Shown piece by piece: positions 3,027 to 15,815 of a DNA stretch of 18,320 nt; the stretch's first letter is position 1, and every line of letters starts with the position of its first letter. The notes beneath the pieces are model-generated. The model saw only the letters and a list, made by a program, of their open reading frames with translations, did no database searches and was not told the DNA's origin. The DNA is from Oscillospiraceae bacterium (GTDB lineage: Bacteria; Bacillota; Clostridia; Oscillospirales; Ruminococcaceae), in contig JAFQND010000286.1 of assembly GCA_017396055.1 (NCBI GenBank), positions 1 to 18,320 on the forward strand, given 5' to 3'. The translations under genes and the position numbers were made by a program.

Positions 3027-3094
3027 TCTCCCTTTCGGGGATCACCGCGCCTTTTTACTCTGTGAAAAGGCAGCACCCACGGGGAGGTGACCGC

Positions 3095-5542
3095 ATGAAG
3101 ATCCTGACAGCCGCCGTTGCGGTGGAAAAGACCGCTTTTCATTTTGACCGGCTGTTTTCCTATGCGGTGCCGGAAGAACTGGCCTCCTCGGTGTGCAGAG
3201 GCGTGCGGGTGCTCGTTCCCTTCGGACGGGGCAACCGTCTCAGTCAGGGTATGGTTTTCTCGGTGGCCGAGGAGGAAGCAAAGCCCGGCCTCAAAGAGAT
3301 CATCACCGTTCTTGACGAAGGGCCCATCCTGGACGAAGAGGGCTTCCGCATCGTCGAATACATGGCCGATACCGCCTTCTCCAGCCGCTATGAAGCGGTG
3401 AAATGCCTGATCCCCGCCGGCCTTTCGGTGGAAGCAAAGATCAGCTATTCTTTCGTCAAGGGGTTTGAAAAAGAGATGCTGCCGAACCTCGAAAAAGAGG
3501 AGCAGCTGCTCATCCGGCTGATGCTCTCGGCCGATACCCCCAAAGAGCTGGAACTGCTTTTTGCAGGCGAAGGTGCCGCCGGACGGAGAAAAACCGCCGG
3601 GATCCTCTGTGAAAAAGGAATTCTCAAAGAAGAACAGACCCTGACCCGTAAGGTGGGCGACAAGACCGCCCGGATGGTGCGCCTCGCAGAAGGAGTCGAC
3701 TCCGAGACAGCCGGCGTCACCCCCAAACAGCGGGAGGTCCTTCGTATTCTTGAAGCGGTGGGCGCTGCCGCCGAGCGGGAAGCTGCCTATCATGCCGGTG
3801 TCACCGAAGCGGTGGTCAGGACCCTTGTCAAAAAGGGTCTGTGTGAATATTTTGAACAGATCGTCTATCGTACCCCCCAGATGCCGGAAGGACATACCGA
3901 CCCCGGCGAACTGAACCTTTCCCAAAAACAGCAGGAAGTCTATGAGAGCCTTCTCTCGTTATACCGGAAGGATGAAGCCGCCGCGGCGCTTTTGTTCGGC
4001 GTCACCGGCTCGGGCAAGACCCAGATCTTCATCCGGCTGATCAGCGACTGCCTTGTCGAAGGCAAACAGGCCATCCTCATGGTGCCCGAGATCGCCCTGA
4101 CGCCCCAGATGCTGAGAAAGTTCCGGGGCTTTTTCGGAAGAGATGTGGCTGTTCTCCATTCGAGTCTTTCTCTGGGCGAGCGTCTGGACGAATACCGGCG
4201 TATCAAATCAGGGGAAGCGCGGGTCGTCATCGGCACCCGGAGCAGTGTTTTTGCCCCCTGCAGCCGTCTCGGACTGATTATCATGGACGAGGAAGGGGAA
4301 CACTCCTATAAATCCGACACCACCCCCCGCTATCACGCGAGGGATATCGCAAAGCTGCGCTGTGTTCATCACCGGGCACTGCTTCTGCTGGCTTCGGCCA
4401 CCCCCAGCGTCGAGAGCTATTATGCCGCAAAGACCGGCAGATATCATCTTTATACTCTGAGAGAGCGTTACGGCAAAGCCGCCCTTCCCTCGGTGGAGAT
4501 GATCGACATGCTGGGAGAGGAACAGAACGGCAACTACAGCCCTTTGAGCGACTCGCTCGCCGAAGAGCTTTTACACGCCTATGAACGGGGCGAGCAGTCC
4601 ATCGTGCTGCTCAATCGCCGCGGTTATGCCACCTTCGGCATCTGTACCGACTGCGGCGAAGCGGTGAAATGCCCCAACTGCAGTATCTCGCTGACCTATC
4701 ACAAGGCCAACGGTTATCTGATGTGCCACTACTGCGGCTTTACAAGAAGACCGCAGGATCCCTGTCCCTCCTGCGGGTCGAAGCACCTGCGGCTGATGGG
4801 CACCGGCACCCAGAAGGTGGAGGATCTGATCGCAAAGCAGATCCCTTCTGCCCGTGTCCTCAGAATGGACACCGACACCACCTACTCCCGCTATGCCTAT
4901 GAGGAGAAATTCTCAAAATTCGAGGCAGGCGAATATGACATCATGATCGGCACCCAGATGGTCGCCAAGGGACTCAATTTTCCCGGCGTGACGCTGGTAG
5001 GCGTGCTGGGCGCAGATCAGTATCTTTATTCCGGCGATTTTCGCTGCGGCGAGAAGACCTTCTCGCTGATCACCCAGGTGGTCGGACGCAGCGGTCGATA
5101 TGAAAAACCCGGTCTGGCCTGTATCCAGACCGTTTCTCCCGATCATCCGGTGATCCGCTATGCGGCGGCACAGGATTATGAGGGATTTTATGCAGACGAG
5201 ATCCAGATCCGCAAGGCGGCGCTGCAGCCCCCCTTCTGCGACCTGATGGTGGTGGGATTTTCCGGGGCGGACGAAGAGAAGGTACGCATCTGTGCCGAAC
5301 GGTTCCACGGGATCCTCAGAAAAAAGCTTCTTGCCGCCGAGGGCATCCCAGCGGTGCTTTTAGGGGTCTCTCAGGCCAATGTCTATCGCGTCAGCGGCAA
5401 ATACCGGCTGAGGATCGTGGTCAAATGCAAAAACAACCGGCGCTTCCGCGACCTTGTCAGACAGGCTGTGGCCGAGGCTGACGGGGAGAAACTGTTCAGA
5501 GGCGTCAGCGTCTATCTGGATATGAATGGCGACATCGCTTAA
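3095..5542 (+). CDS. priA: Primosomal protein N' (PriA replication-restart helicase)
   Basis: PriA is a 3'-to-5' DNA helicase that recognises stalled or collapsed forks and reloads the replicative helicase. The 815 residues comprise an N-terminal 3'-DNA-binding domain (from VAVEKTAFHFDRLFSY) and a helicase core with Walker A GVTGSGKT (302-309) and DEEGEH (398-403). The PriA-specific zinc region has four CxxC-type pairs between about 517 and 560. Motifs MIGTQMVAKGLNFP and QVVGRSGR follow. ATG 3095 is preferred because GGGGAGGTGA lies just upstream; an in-frame GTG at 3062 lacks one. In B. subtilis coaBC lies between rpoZ and priA; here it is absent. The stop codon lies inside the left arm of a hairpin that begins a structured repeat. 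Confidence 0.96.
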   Translation: MKILTAAVAVEKTAFHFDRLFSYAVPEELASSVCRGVRVLVPFGRGNRLSQGMVFSVAEEEAKPGLKEIITVLDEGPILDEEGFRIVEYMADTAFSSRYEAVKCLIPAGLSVEAKISYSFVKGFEKEMLPNLEKEEQLLIRLMLSADTPKELELLFAGEGAAGRRKTAGILCEKGILKEEQTLTRKVGDKTARMVRLAEGVDSETAGVTPKQREVLRILEAVGAAAEREAAYHAGVTEAVVRTLVKKGLCEYFEQIVYRTPQMPEGHTDPGELNLSQKQQEVYESLLSLYRKDEAAAALLFGVTGSGKTQIFIRLISDCLVEGKQAILMVPEIALTPQMLRKFRGFFGRDVAVLHSSLSLGERLDEYRRIKSGEARVVIGTRSSVFAPCSRLGLIIMDEEGEHSYKSDTTPRYHARDIAKLRCVHHRALLLLASATPSVESYYAAKTGRYHLYTLRERYGKAALPSVEMIDMLGEEQNGNYSPLSDSLAEELLHAYERGEQSIVLLNRRGYATFGICTDCGEAVKCPNCSISLTYHKANGYLMCHYCGFTRRPQDPCPSCGSKHLRLMGTGTQKVEDLIAKQIPSARVLRMDTDTTYSRYAYEEKFSKFEAGEYDIMIGTQMVAKGLNFPGVTLVGVLGADQYLYSGDFRCGEKTFSLITQVVGRSGRYEKPGLACIQTVSPDHPVIRYAAAQDYEGFYADEIQIRKAALQPPFCDLMVVGFSGADEEKVRICAERFHGILRKKLLAAEGIPAVLLGVSQANVYRVSGKYRLRIVVKCKNNRRFRDLVRQAVAEADGEKLFRGVSVYLDMNGDIA

Positions 5543-5565
5543 CCGCAAAGCGGTTAAGCTGCAAG
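5535..5565 (+). repeat. 31-bp direct repeat, left copy (hairpin over the priA stop codon)
   Basis: This segment matches 5654-5684 at 29 of 31 positions. It contains a perfect 10-bp inverted repeat, GCTTAACCGC (5537-5546) with GCGGTTAAGC (5550-5559), and an AAA loop. The priA TAA is at 5540-5542 in the left arm. Both copies continue into CTGCA. The pair flanks the structured element. Confidence 0.85.
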
Positions 5566-5641
5566 AAACCTTCCGGTCTTACGGGACCATAAAACTGCTT
5601 TGCAGTTTTGGATGTCGGTTTCTTGCGCGTGGTACCTCTGT
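5537..5641 (+). repeat. Structured RNA-like repeat element, copy 1 (3' of priA)
   Basis: After the stop-codon hairpin comes GCTGCAAGAA and a long helix, GCAAGAAACC (5561-5570) with GGTTTCTTGC (5617-5626). It encloses a weak hairpin around 5572-5588 and a stronger one with AAAACTGC (5591-5598) pairing GCAGTTTT (5602-5609), extended by CC/GG with a bulged AT. The tail GCGCGTGGTACCTCTGT (5625-5641) is identical in copy 2 at 15744-15760. Helix sequences differ between the copies while pairing is kept. No T-tract follows, so it is not a simple terminator. I do not recognise the family. Confidence 0.7.
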
Positions 5642-5653
5642 GTAAACGGAGCG

Positions 5654-5684
5654 TCGCTTAACCGCAAAACGGTTAAGCTGCAGG
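5654..5684 (+). repeat. 31-bp direct repeat, right copy
   Basis: Nearly identical to 5535-5565, with 2 differences. It forms a 9-bp hairpin, GCTTAACCG (5656-5664) with CGGTTAAGC (5670-5678). Here the TAA is not the end of a gene, so the hairpin exists independently of the priA stop codon. It joins directly to the MITE-like element at 5690. Confidence 0.85.
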
Positions 5685-5689
5685 TATGA

Positions 5690-5770
5690 TTGTAGGGGAC
5701 GGGTTTCCCGTCCCGCAGCTTTCAGCAGCGTTATGGTATATCAGCGGGCGGGGATACCCCACCCCTACAA
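5690..5770. mobile_element. MITE-like element with TTGTAGGGG terminal inverted repeats
   Basis: TTGTAGGGG (5690-5698) is repeated inverted as CCCCTACAA (5762-5770). Just inside each end is a local hairpin: GGGACGGG/CCCGTCCC with a TTT loop (5696-5714) and GGGCGGGG/CCCCACCC with an ATA loop (5746-5764). The 81-bp element encodes nothing. CAGGT occurs shortly outside both ends (5681-5685 and 5771-5775) and might be a target duplication. Similar G-run/C-run intergenic repeats are common in gut Clostridia genomes (general knowledge). No transposase is present, so it would be non-autonomous. Confidence 0.55.
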
Positions 5771-5797
5771 CAGGTTTCAACCAGGAAGGAAAAAATT

Positions 5798-6301
5798 ATG
5801 GCAATTCGGCAAATGGTATATGAGGGAGATGAGCTCCTTCGCAAGAAATCCCGTGAGGTGACCGTCTTTGACGAAAAGCTGGGCACCCTGCTGGACGACA
5901 TGGCCCAGACCATGGAAAAGGCAAACGGCGTCGGCCTTGCCGGCGTACAGGTCGGTATCCTGCGCAGAGTCGTGGTCATCGATATCGGCGAAGGCCGCAT
6001 CGAACTGATCAACCCCGTTATCATCGGCACTTCCGGCACTCAGAACGGCAGCGAAGGCTGTCTCTCTTTCCCCGGTCAGTACGGCATGGTCGAGCGCCCC
6101 AATGAGGTCACCGTCCGCGCCCAGGACCGCCACGGCGAGTTTTATGAGATGACCGGTGTCGGCCTTCTGGCCCGTGCCTTCTGCCATGAGATAGACCATC
6201 TGGACGGCATCGTCTTCAAAGATCACGCATCCGAGATGCTCGAGCCCGAAAAACCCCGCAAAAAACTCTCTGTCCGCCTTAAACGCAAGGAAAGAGACTG
6301 A
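5798..6301 (+). CDS. def: Peptide deformylase
   Basis: This enzyme removes the formyl group from the N-terminal formylmethionine of new proteins, using a metal (usually Fe2+). The 167 residues carry all three family motifs: GVGLAGVQVG (residues 44-53, with Gly where the second Ala of the classic GLAAPQ usually sits), EGCLS (87-91, metal-ligand Cys88) and HEIDH (130-134, two His ligands and the catalytic Glu). The C-terminus is a short basic tail. AGGAAGGA precedes the ATG, downstream of the MITE-like insertion. The TGA stop overlaps the AGGAGG of fmt, the gene that makes the formyl-Met-tRNA whose product Def later processes. Confidence 0.97.
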   Translation: MAIRQMVYEGDELLRKKSREVTVFDEKLGTLLDDMAQTMEKANGVGLAGVQVGILRRVVVIDIGEGRIELINPVIIGTSGTQNGSEGCLSFPGQYGMVERPNEVTVRAQDRHGEFYEMTGVGLLARAFCHEIDHLDGIVFKDHASEMLEPEKPRKKLSVRLKRKERD

Positions 6302-7941: not shown

Positions 7942-9282
7942 ATGCCTGTCGAGAAAAAGCTTACCGGCCGTGATGCGGCTTTTGATGCGCTGGTGCGGAT
8001 GGAGAAGGACAAAGCCTATTCCAACCTGACACTGGACAGCGTTTTAAGATCCATGACCGACAACCGCGAGCGGCAGTTTGCCTCGGCGCTGTTTTACGGT
8101 GTGCTGGAGCGGAAGGTCACCCTCGACCGGGTCATCGCGGAATATGTGAAAAAAAGCTCTTCCTCGCTGGATGCCGAGGTGCTTGTCGCCCTCGAGCTGG
8201 GAATTTATCAGCTGCTTTATATGGACAGCATTCCCGACCGCGCCGCCGTGGGCGAGAGCGTCGAGCTGATCAAGCGCTCCCGCAAAAAGAGCGCTTCCGG
8301 CCTTGTCAACGGTGTGCTGAGAGCATTTCTGCGGGATAATAAAAAGCTGCCCGCACCGAAAAATGAGCTGGATGCCCTGTCGATCGAGACGGCCATGCCT
8401 CTCTGGATCTTGAAGATGTGGAGCGATCAATACGGCTCCGACACCGCCGAAGCGCTGGCCTTTTCCTGCCTGGGAAGACCGCCCATGCAGCTGAGAGTCA
8501 ACACGGTGCGCATCTCTGGAAAAGAGGCGGAAGAGAAGCTTACAGCTCTCGGTGTTCAGGTCAGGGCACATGGATTGCTGCCCGATTGTCTGACGGTCAG
8601 AGAGCTCGGCTCGGTGGGAGAAAATCCCCTCATCCGCCAAGGCCTTCTTTATGTGCAGGATACCGCCTCACAGCTCTGTGCGCAGGCTATCGGCCCGAAG
8701 CCCGGCGAAAGGGTCTTTGACCTCTGTTCGGCTCCCGGCTCCAAGAGCTTTACCATGGCTCAGCTGATGGAAAACAAGGGCGAGATCCTTGCCTTTGACC
8801 TGCATAAAAACCGTGTGAAACTGATCACCGACGGCGCTGCCCGTCTTGGCCTTACGGTCATCAGAGGCGCTGTCGGCGACGCGACCAAATATAACGAAAG
8901 CTTAGGCCTTGCCGATCGGGTGCTCTGTGACGTGCCCTGTGCGGGACTGGGCGTCATCCGCCGCAAACCGGAGATCCGCCTCAAATCGGAGAAAGAGCTG
9001 CGCGCCCTGCCCGGGATCCAGAAAAAGATCCTTCTGAACGCCGCAGACTATGTAAAACCGGACGGCATACTGGTCTATTCGACCTGTTCTCTCAACAGAG
9101 AAGAAAACGATCGGGTCATCGAGGCATTTCTCGCCGAACGTCCCGATTTTGTCCCCGACCCTCTGCCGGAGATCTTTAACGGTCTCACCGACGAGGGATA
9201 CAAGGCGACCCTCATGCCCCACAGGGGAGATCATGACGGGTTCTTTATCGCCCGGCTAAGAAAATCCGTTTCGCGGTCTTAG
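7942..9282 (+). CDS. rsmB: 16S rRNA (cytosine-967-C5)-methyltransferase RsmB
   Basis: This SAM-dependent enzyme makes m5C967 (E. coli numbering) in 16S rRNA. The 446 residues have a NusB-like RNA-binding domain (about 8-135) followed by the methyltransferase fold. That fold shows the SAM motif LCSAPGSKSFTMAQLM, then CDVPCAGLGVIRRKPEI with Cys333 of motif IV, and YSTCSLNREEN with the nucleophile Cys382 of motif VI. The C-terminal HRGDHDGFFIARL motif is intact. It starts 1 nt after the peptidase stop, with CAGGAG upstream. The stop codon sits in a hairpin followed by CTGCA, like priA and mtnN. Confidence 0.96.
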   Translation: MPVEKKLTGRDAAFDALVRMEKDKAYSNLTLDSVLRSMTDNRERQFASALFYGVLERKVTLDRVIAEYVKKSSSSLDAEVLVALELGIYQLLYMDSIPDRAAVGESVELIKRSRKKSASGLVNGVLRAFLRDNKKLPAPKNELDALSIETAMPLWILKMWSDQYGSDTAEALAFSCLGRPPMQLRVNTVRISGKEAEEKLTALGVQVRAHGLLPDCLTVRELGSVGENPLIRQGLLYVQDTASQLCAQAIGPKPGERVFDLCSAPGSKSFTMAQLMENKGEILAFDLHKNRVKLITDGAARLGLTVIRGAVGDATKYNESLGLADRVLCDVPCAGLGVIRRKPEIRLKSEKELRALPGIQKKILLNAADYVKPDGILVYSTCSLNREENDRVIEAFLAERPDFVPDPLPEIFNGLTDEGYKATLMPHRGDHDGFFIARLRKSVSRS

Positions 9283-14990: not shown

Positions 14991-15665
14991 ATGAAAAAGA
15001 TCGGCATTATCGGAGCCATGGGCTCTGAGATCGAACTGCTGCGCGCCCGCATGGAAAATGTCACCGAGACTATCCGCGCCGGCCGTACCTTCTACAGCGG
15101 CAAACTGGGCGGCACCGAGACCGTACTGGTCTGCTCCGGAATCGGCAAGGTCAACTCTGCCATGACCGCTCAGATGCTCATTGACCTCTTTGAGACCGAC
15201 GCCATCATCAATACCGGTGTTGCCGGCGGCGCAGGCGCTGCAAAAGTCCGCGACGTGGTGGTTTCCACCGAGCTTACCTATCATGACATGGACCAGGATA
15301 TTCTGGCTCAGGGCTGGCCCAACGTAAAATACTTCACCGCCGACGAAAAACTCAGAGCACTGGCTGTCAAGGCCTGTGAGGGAAGAGTGACCTGTCACGA
15401 AGGTCTGATCGCCACCGGCGACCAGTTCATCGGCAGCGCCGATGTCAAGGCCGACATCGTTGCCCGCCTTTCTCCTCTCGCTGTCGAGATGGAGGGCGGT
15501 TCCATCGCCCATGTCTGTGCCGGCAACGGTATTCCCTTTGTGGTCATCCGCTGTATCTCTGACAACGCCGACGACGGCGCTGAGATGAGCTTTGAGACCT
15601 TTGTCAAGCTCGCTGCCGACGATGCAGCCGAGATCGTCACCTCGATGCTCGCCTCTGCGTGCTGA
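14991..15665 (+). CDS. mtnN: 5'-methylthioadenosine/S-adenosylhomocysteine nucleosidase
   Basis: This enzyme hydrolyses methylthioadenosine and S-adenosylhomocysteine, freeing adenine and recycling methyl-cycle by-products. The 224 residues show the family start IGIIGAMGSE (catalytic Glu13), SGIGKVNSAM, NTGVAGG, the ribose-binding VEMEGGSIAHV (Glu166/Glu168) and IRCISDNAD with the catalytic Asp191. AAGGAG lies upstream of the ATG, 29 nt after spoVM. Its substrates are by-products of SAM enzymes such as RsmB and RlmN upstream, though the gene may have its own promoter. The stop codon is in the loop of a long hairpin that begins copy 2 of the structured element. Confidence 0.95.
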   Translation: MKKIGIIGAMGSEIELLRARMENVTETIRAGRTFYSGKLGGTETVLVCSGIGKVNSAMTAQMLIDLFETDAIINTGVAGGAGAAKVRDVVVSTELTYHDMDQDILAQGWPNVKYFTADEKLRALAVKACEGRVTCHEGLIATGDQFIGSADVKADIVARLSPLAVEMEGGSIAHVCAGNGIPFVVIRCISDNADDGAEMSFETFVKLAADDAAEIVTSMLASAC

Positions 15666-15760
15666 GGCGAGCATGCTGCAAGAATAATTCGAAGTCTTCC
15701 GACTTCGCCATAACCGCTTCGCGGTTGGATGGACATTATTCTCGCGCGTGGTACCTCTGT
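15645..15760 (+). repeat. Structured RNA-like repeat element, copy 2 (3' of mtnN)
   Basis: A perfect 11-bp hairpin, ATGCTCGCCTC (15645-15655) with GAGGCGAGCAT (15664-15674), surrounds the mtnN TGA. Then come GCTGCAAGAA and a helix, GCAAGAATAAT (15678-15688) with ATTATTCTCGC (15735-15745), with one A-C mismatch. Inside are hairpins CGAAGTC/GACTTCG (15690-15707, loop TTCC) and AACCGC/GCGGTT (15712-15726, loop TTC), the latter extended by CC/GG with a bulged AT. The 3' tail GCGCGTGGTACCTCTGT (15744-15760) is identical to copy 1. A real terminator follows 23 nt later. Confidence 0.7.
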
Positions 15761-15782: not shown

Positions 15783-15815
15783 GCTCTGCCCGAAAGGGCA
15801 GGGCTTTTTGTTTTT
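15783..15815 (+). terminator. Rho-independent terminator after mtnN
   Basis: GCTCTGCCC (15783-15791) pairs with GGGCAGGGC (15796-15804), with one G-U, on a GAAA tetraloop. TTTTTGTTTTT follows. This ends the long plus-strand cluster. Confidence 0.93.

Follow-up and report, generated by a model that had tools for sequence, protein, structure and literature searches.

The window, by which we mean the whole stretch of 18,320 nucleotides analysed here, carries two copies of a small folded element, each at the 3' end of a gene that was matched in all 14 genomes of the genus. The preliminary description of this DNA had reported that the copies share GCTGCAAGAA at the start and GCGCGTGGTACCTCTGT at the end, and we found both motifs where it placed them. 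The common fold that it proposed, a closing helix (P1) around two hairpins (P2 and P3), also holds in both copies: folded alone, copy 1 reaches -33.1 kcal/mol (z -4.65, equalled by 0 of 200 dinucleotide shuffles) and copy 2 -28.7 kcal/mol (z -2.97, equalled by 1 of 200). The borders drawn at that time were too narrow, because a further hairpin, H0, which overlaps the stop codon, lies directly upstream of both copies. The features of the window are as follows.

3062-5542, forward strand: host gene of copy 1, named priA in the preliminary description
5537-5559, forward strand: H0 hairpin of copy 1, arms GCTTAACCGC and GCGGTTAAGC, loop AAA
5558-5641, forward strand: copy 1, a member of the model training set (covariance model E 3.6e-17)
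5561-5570 and 5617-5626: closing helix of copy 1, with P2 at about 5575-5588, P3 at 5591-5609 and the tail GCGCGTGGTACCTCTGT
about 5656-5684, forward strand: repeat of copy 1's H0 with CTGCAGG, 3' of copy 1
14991-15665, forward strand: host gene of copy 2, named as mtnN-like in the preliminary description
15645-15674, forward strand: H0 hairpin of copy 2, arms ATGCTCGCCTC and GAGGCGAGCAT
15675-15760, forward strand: copy 2, a member of the model training set (covariance model E 1.0e-24)
15678-15688 and 15735-15745: closing helix of copy 2, with P2 at 15690-15707, P3 at 15708-15732 and the tail at 15744-15760

The stop codon of priA (TAA, 5540-5542) falls inside the 5' arm of the first H0, and the 5' arm of the second is made of the final codons of the mtnN-like gene (stop TGA, 15663-15665). 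The closing helix is present in both copies as originally described, save that the one in copy 2 contains an A·C mismatch, ATTATTCTCGC against GCAAGAATAAT, that had been missed. The repeat of H0 and CTGCAGG at 5656-5684 resembles what is left of a tandem unit, and in a fold of 5538-5680 this second H0 pairs with the first.

The genome that holds the window (G000) is a draft of 1.90 Mb in 351 contigs that is 67.7% complete. The 17-nt end motif, with up to three mismatches, occurs 12 times in this draft against one occurrence for a reversed control, although a few of these, L010 among them, look unrelated. A covariance model built from eight G000 copies (R1) gave 41 listed matches in G000, 33 of them at E <= 0.01 with the eight training copies included. 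The element is a multi-copy repeat, as the search for further copies envisaged in the preliminary description was meant to reveal, and the resemblance between the two window copies is not due to chance.

Across the 14 genus genomes, R1 found matches at E <= 1 in four. A second model (R2), made from 87 R1 matches that already included rows from G150, G030 and G153, found matches at E <= 0.1 in eight of the 14: 64 in G150, a number that counts both strands of single palindromic copies, 35 in G000, 12 in G153, 6 in G030, 4 in G156, 2 each in G149 and G154, and a weak one in G141. Under strict filters, and with the own genome counted, 6 of 396 genomes in a sample of the family and 8 of 394 in a sample of the order contained R2 matches; G227, which belongs to another genus of the same family, contains 15 matches at E <= 0.05. 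Viewed by eye, copies from G227, G010, G153, G156, G149, G714, G735, G752 and G526 have the two-hairpin fold, with a third hairpin in G526 and in some G227 copies. Relatives of the element are found in some members of the genus, at high copy number in one other genus, and sparsely in other families of the order. Matches in G374, G482 and G681 were dropped as lacking the two-hairpin fold on viewing, as were the second match in G010 (C6) and the C41 match in G153, which look unrelated. Scans with an exact pattern returned 29 matches, 27 from a collection of genome contigs in which records near the window's genome may be left out, one from viral contigs and one in G100, another genome of the family sample; none has a P1 round two hairpins by eye, and by our own estimate about 30 chance matches were to be expected in the contig collection, so all were discarded.

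The order of the element is H0, TGCAAGAA, P1 enclosing P2 and P3, TTCTTGCGCGTG, and a tail. As part of an overall explanation to which we give an even chance, we regard it as a dispersed, non-autonomous repeat, about 110-150 nt long, with a three-way junction and a CGTG motif in its tail. P3 can be long (G150), and P2 and P3 are both missing in L068, L109, L115 and others. Tandem units occur on C150 (103 bp apart), on C328 (64 bp, three units) and in G227 (up to four units). H0 is nearly constant in G150 (CGCTTTCC..GGAAAGC), and in other genera the architecture recurs with different sequences; a P2 like GGTC-RGAGC-GACC was recognised by eye in three of four distant fold-bearing genomes (G714, G735 and G752, not G526). 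At L087, L094, L095, L099 and L109 of G150, a long P3 carries a recurring insert at its tip (GCCGCCAGCGCA ... CGCATGGCGGAC or close variants).

The regions after priA and mtnN in the 13 other genus genomes, viewed by eye over up to 260-300 nt, are without the element (two of the mtnN sequences are short owing to contig ends), and R2 has no match on the relatives' contigs that hold the two orthologues. Copies 1 and 2 are therefore insertions in this lineage. The borders of the element are not sharp, and a target duplication is therefore not definable. Gene ends are a frequent location: a same-strand ORF of at least 80 codons ends within 90 nt upstream in 20 of 24 G000 copies, and within 25 nt in 13, the other four having no same-strand gene end within 90 nt. 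The remaining nine of the 33 copies (C52, two on C150, C256, three on C328, C2, and the second on C172) were left out of this test because of contig edges, truncation or tandem repeats. As for orientation, a rough table of scored gene calls for 78 copies, tandem and near-identical ones included, places the upstream gene on the element's strand in 39 cases and on the opposite strand in 18, with no upstream call in 16 and a position inside an ORF in five. A mirror test on raw ORFs (16 of 19 against 8 of 19 in G000; 13 of 18 against 7 of 18 in G150) is weak because spurious antisense ORFs are also counted, and we relied more on the gene calls, rough as they too are.

Many copies, empty orthologous sites, a frequent stop-codon position, changes on both sides of 26 of 28 pairs and the lack of an Rfam family at threshold bear out the suggestion of a mobile structured repeat made in the preliminary description, and the element is MITE- or BOX-like in being a short, non-coding, multi-copy unit with empty orthologous sites. 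A position after stop codons would equally suit ordinary intrinsic terminators that resemble one another by chance. This we consider highly improbable: the copies have conserved flanking motifs, a three-way junction, tandem units and dozens of homologues, copy 2 is followed on its 3' side by a separate terminator-like hairpin with a T run at about 15783-15815, and chance resemblance is already contradicted by the copy search and the pairing analysis.

Compensating base changes are standard evidence for functional RNA structure, and those between the two window copies had been read as a sign of selection on RNA or of a mobile structured repeat. In an alignment of 81 distinct sequences (A3), both sides have changed in 26 of 28 pairs. 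Paired cells make up 92.2%, compared with 71.9% after shuffling (a level reached in 0 of 500 shuffles) and 36-44% with slid partners, and the weak one of five measures, further pair types, is matched by 16 of 500 shuffles; these shuffle counts overstate significance because the copies are related. The alignment was fitted to the structure; some of its rows represent a single copy on both strands or at overlapping loci, and at least one (L125) is a likely chance match. The covariation in A3 demonstrates pairing, not what causes the pairing.

Selection on RNA tolerates G·U more than A·C, while maintenance at the DNA level has no reason to do so. The 20 variable pairs comprise 1174 cells, of which 1060 are Watson-Crick, 14 G·T and 25 A·C, and the 1727 cells that lie outside the outermost pair include 25 G·T and 42 A·C. 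When 78 copies were folded with Watson-Crick pairs only, the 1x1 mismatches comprised 23 A·C against 8 G·T (7 and 2 in G000, 8 and 1 in G150, 8 and 5 in G227, and none of either in G153 and G010). By comparison, G·U accounts for 13 of 174 pairs (7.5%) in eight distinct tRNAs taken from the same sequences, a control confined to G·U since the program draws standard pairs and A·C is not countable. That G·U is no commoner than A·C therefore argues against an RNA of this strand having undergone ordinary compensation; an A·C here is a G·U on the other strand (25 of 1174, 2.1%), so the test leaves room for an opposite-strand RNA. The compensating changes proposed earlier are confirmed, but selection on RNA is not established as their cause, given the wobble test and the coding-matched H0 arms described below.

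Two close copies were also compared. Copy 2 (L051) and L053 are identical over about 45 nt of the P2-P3 region and differ in P1 at three bases in the 5' arm and three in the 3' arm, so that three P1 pairs of L051 (AAT/ATT) correspond to one pair and two mismatches in L053; the A·C in P1 of L051 is A-T in L053. Clustered changes in two arms beside an unchanged interior fit copying of one arm from the other, but a single comparison proves little.

The H0 hairpin provides a second line of evidence. The 5' arm of H0 is coding and the 3' arm its reverse complement at 11 of 20 element-bearing gene ends in G000, compared with 1 of 44 other gene ends (Fisher p 2e-6, at a 9-bp cut chosen after the data were seen). 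A case was scored when an inverted repeat of at least 9 bp, with one mismatch allowed, had at least 6 nt of its 5' arm within the gene. The ORF minimum was 80 codons for element-bearing gene ends and 100 codons for the others, and in a common ORF pool the difference is 8 of 15 against 1 of 44. The other 9 of the 20 gene ends are without the pattern, which is frequent only in G000 (1 of 15 gene ends in G150). The one element-free gene end among the 44 with a long coding inverted repeat is L065 (CCCGAATCGATGTAACGG), which also has a further hairpin copy (CCTGAATCGATC); it is perhaps a case of template switching without the element, or a decayed copy.

Comparison of twelve gene ends with three relatives yielded orthologues for nine. 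The amino acids encoded by the H0 arm are conserved in element-free relatives at L056, L067 and L072, and mostly so at L073. The arm is partly native at L063, where some amino acids are kept, and at L059, where it lies two codons beyond the relative's end; at L055, L074 and L119, H0 follows the stop codon. The gene at L069, which we take to be SDR-like, has the final codons CAGCGGCTG in G000 and CAGAGACTG in G150, and the gene-adjacent arms differ to match, being AGCCGCTGAA in G000 and, in G150, AGTCTCTGAA, also given as AGTCTCTGAATGTGG. Further along in G150, the first element has AGTCTCTGAATTTT and the second AGCCGCTGAATTTT, which can also pair locally (GCGG/CCGC). In G000 (contig C172, about 8650-9020), a direct duplication of approximately 125 bp of this gene's 3' end flanks the first element, and the second gene end bears its own element.

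Template switching would explain H0 arms that match coding sequence, and the pattern suggests that hairpin arms may be rewritten by copying and are not kept solely by selection on RNA. Such switching has been put forward as a process that generates and preserves hairpins in RNA genes (PMC8794818). The element resembles those hairpins in its perfect stems, for which copying of one arm from the other is the proposed origin and means of upkeep, and differs in that those were seen in alignments of RNA genes, whereas here a dispersed bacterial repeat has an arm that matches the end of a protein gene. We propose, tentatively and with some doubt, that the mobile repeat writes the reverse complement of its host's last codons into its own first arm, on or after insertion, and so acquires a custom hairpin that spans the stop codon. 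If true, fold-back copying would link translation termination in every host gene to a selfish element.

Our preferred explanation, which we think has an equal chance of being right or wrong, is a mobile structured repeat like a MITE or BOX element, in which DNA template switching is largely what keeps the arms complementary. Insertion would take place close to gene ends, in many cases at the stop codon, and mostly in the same orientation as the gene, and the folded shape of the element would be what persists. During replication the nascent strand may fold back as a hairpin and copy one arm into the other, a quasipalindrome correction that would keep the arms in G000 near-perfect Watson-Crick partners. 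The same copying could re-template H0 on the host gene, making its 3' arm the reverse complement of the last codons. Transcribed with the gene, the element would fold at the 3' end, and a terminating ribosome would have to open its first hairpin, with a possible influence on the stability of the mRNA or on expression downstream. Copying alone would not preserve an architecture that recurs with different sequences, so there must also be selection on shape; as the shape is kept across genera, it is presumably under selection of some kind, either by a mobilising protein or through a role as RNA.

BOX elements of Streptococcus pneumoniae are a close parallel: they too are small, folded and dispersed repeats, with hairpins as modules and modules in tandem (PMC3049150). 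The likeness is one of architecture, and we claim no sequence relation; BOX has an A-B-C modular build (PMC3049150). BOX encodes the stop codon, at the extreme 3' end, in 36 of 58 overlapping annotated genes (PMC3049150); copying of host codons into a hairpin arm is absent from the available part of that account. IS1272 is also a mobile element, and its targets can be inverted repeats; it replaces a pre-existing inverted repeat (PMC5678879), whereas the element-free orthologues that we viewed by eye have no such repeat over the gene end.

The principal alternative is a structured RNA family under ordinary RNA selection, acting as a 3' UTR element here and as a 5' leader or small RNA in G227, in which compensatory mutations would have become fixed owing to the importance of the RNA fold. 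Directly before H0 in nine G227 arrays lie -10 and -35 hexamers, 16-17 nt apart, the pair ending 2-5 nt before the H0 start that was searched. Matches to the consensus average 9.8 of 12, against 6.7 in shuffled sequence; one array near a contig end and inner tandem copies were left out of this comparison, in which only the -35, which varies and is poor in L204, is independent, since the -10 belongs to the repeat and is common by descent. A called same-strand ORF lies downstream in 12 of 13 G227 rows, and the neighbouring genes, by eye, have no common function. Judged from these sequence patterns, the element in G227 looks like a transcribed leader or RNA.

Selection on RNA keeps its place in the discussion because of these promoter-like sites and because the architecture occurs in other genera, where P1, P2 and P3, with H0 in most, recur across several genera and families and P2 itself is similar in G714, G735 and G752. 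The excess of upstream genes on the element's strand in the gene-call table, duplicates included, points the same way. Against it stand the frequency of G·U, which is no commoner than A·C while tRNAs of the same sequences have 7.5% of it, the H0 arms that match coding sequence, the lack of a shared function among the G227 neighbours and the lack of an Rfam match at threshold at the window copies. On balance we think an RNA family of this kind unlikely.

At the gathering threshold, Rfam recognised only a tRNA at 309-392 in the whole window and no family at the two copies, in keeping with the earlier remark that no named family with this consensus was known. In permissive Rfam scans covering 5500-5800 and 16 relative loci, families overlapped the element only at chance level, namely Mico1 (10.8 bits, E 6.4) and TD-2 (L118, 479-553, minus strand; 30.5 bits against a threshold of 48.7, E 0.36), and no group II intron was listed there. 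The motif GTGGTACC prompted us to consider a T-box leader (RF00230), which gave no match at the element in these scans. A sub-threshold T-box match was seen outside the element at L080 (1210-1448, minus strand; 49.9 bits against 93).

The near Watson-Crick-only helices without an excess of G·U would also fit DNA hairpins, and insertion at two sites is likewise consistent with a DNA element that is recognised as a folded single strand, of REP/REPIN, IS200/IS605-like or attC-like kind, in which a recombinase that binds the hairpin would conserve the arms. REP/REPIN sequences, with RAYT/TnpA-REP, share with our element a palindromic, intergenic and many-copied character and are thought to be non-autonomous (PMC2817692, PMC8266576). 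In the available parts of these accounts they consist of one fixed palindrome, unlike the three-way junction and variable arms seen here. A search for Y1 transposase (PF01797, the sole transposase family searched) found no match in the main carriers G000 and G150, a weak absence because these drafts are 68% and 86% complete, and yielded no mobilising enzyme. The family was found in one of the 14 genus genomes, G158, which is without the element. We judge a single-strand DNA element of this kind improbable, and continue to favour a mobile repeat whose arms are copied.

The literature searches brought up no description of the element, which may be among the 3161 candidate structured RNAs from human microbiomes in PMC8040213, a paper that was searched by text words. 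The element has compensating changes in nearly every pair, yet its signature, including the coding-matched arm, fits DNA copying. If copying is indeed the cause, such repeats could mislead RNA discovery that is based on covariation, and the element would be a natural setting for reading hairpin correction through template switching, with many independent targets available in a single genome.

Two further kinds of repeat were encountered. L081, L084, L086, L088 and L090 of G030 are composite non-coding repeats of about 250-500 bp with several hairpins each, which are gained or absent between copies. In the window itself, 5690-5770 holds an inverted pair, TTGTAGGGGACGGGTTTCCCGTCCCGC and GCGGGCGGGGATACCCCACCCCTACAA, which probably represents a second dispersed repeat family, because its first arm is also found upstream of a copy in L017.
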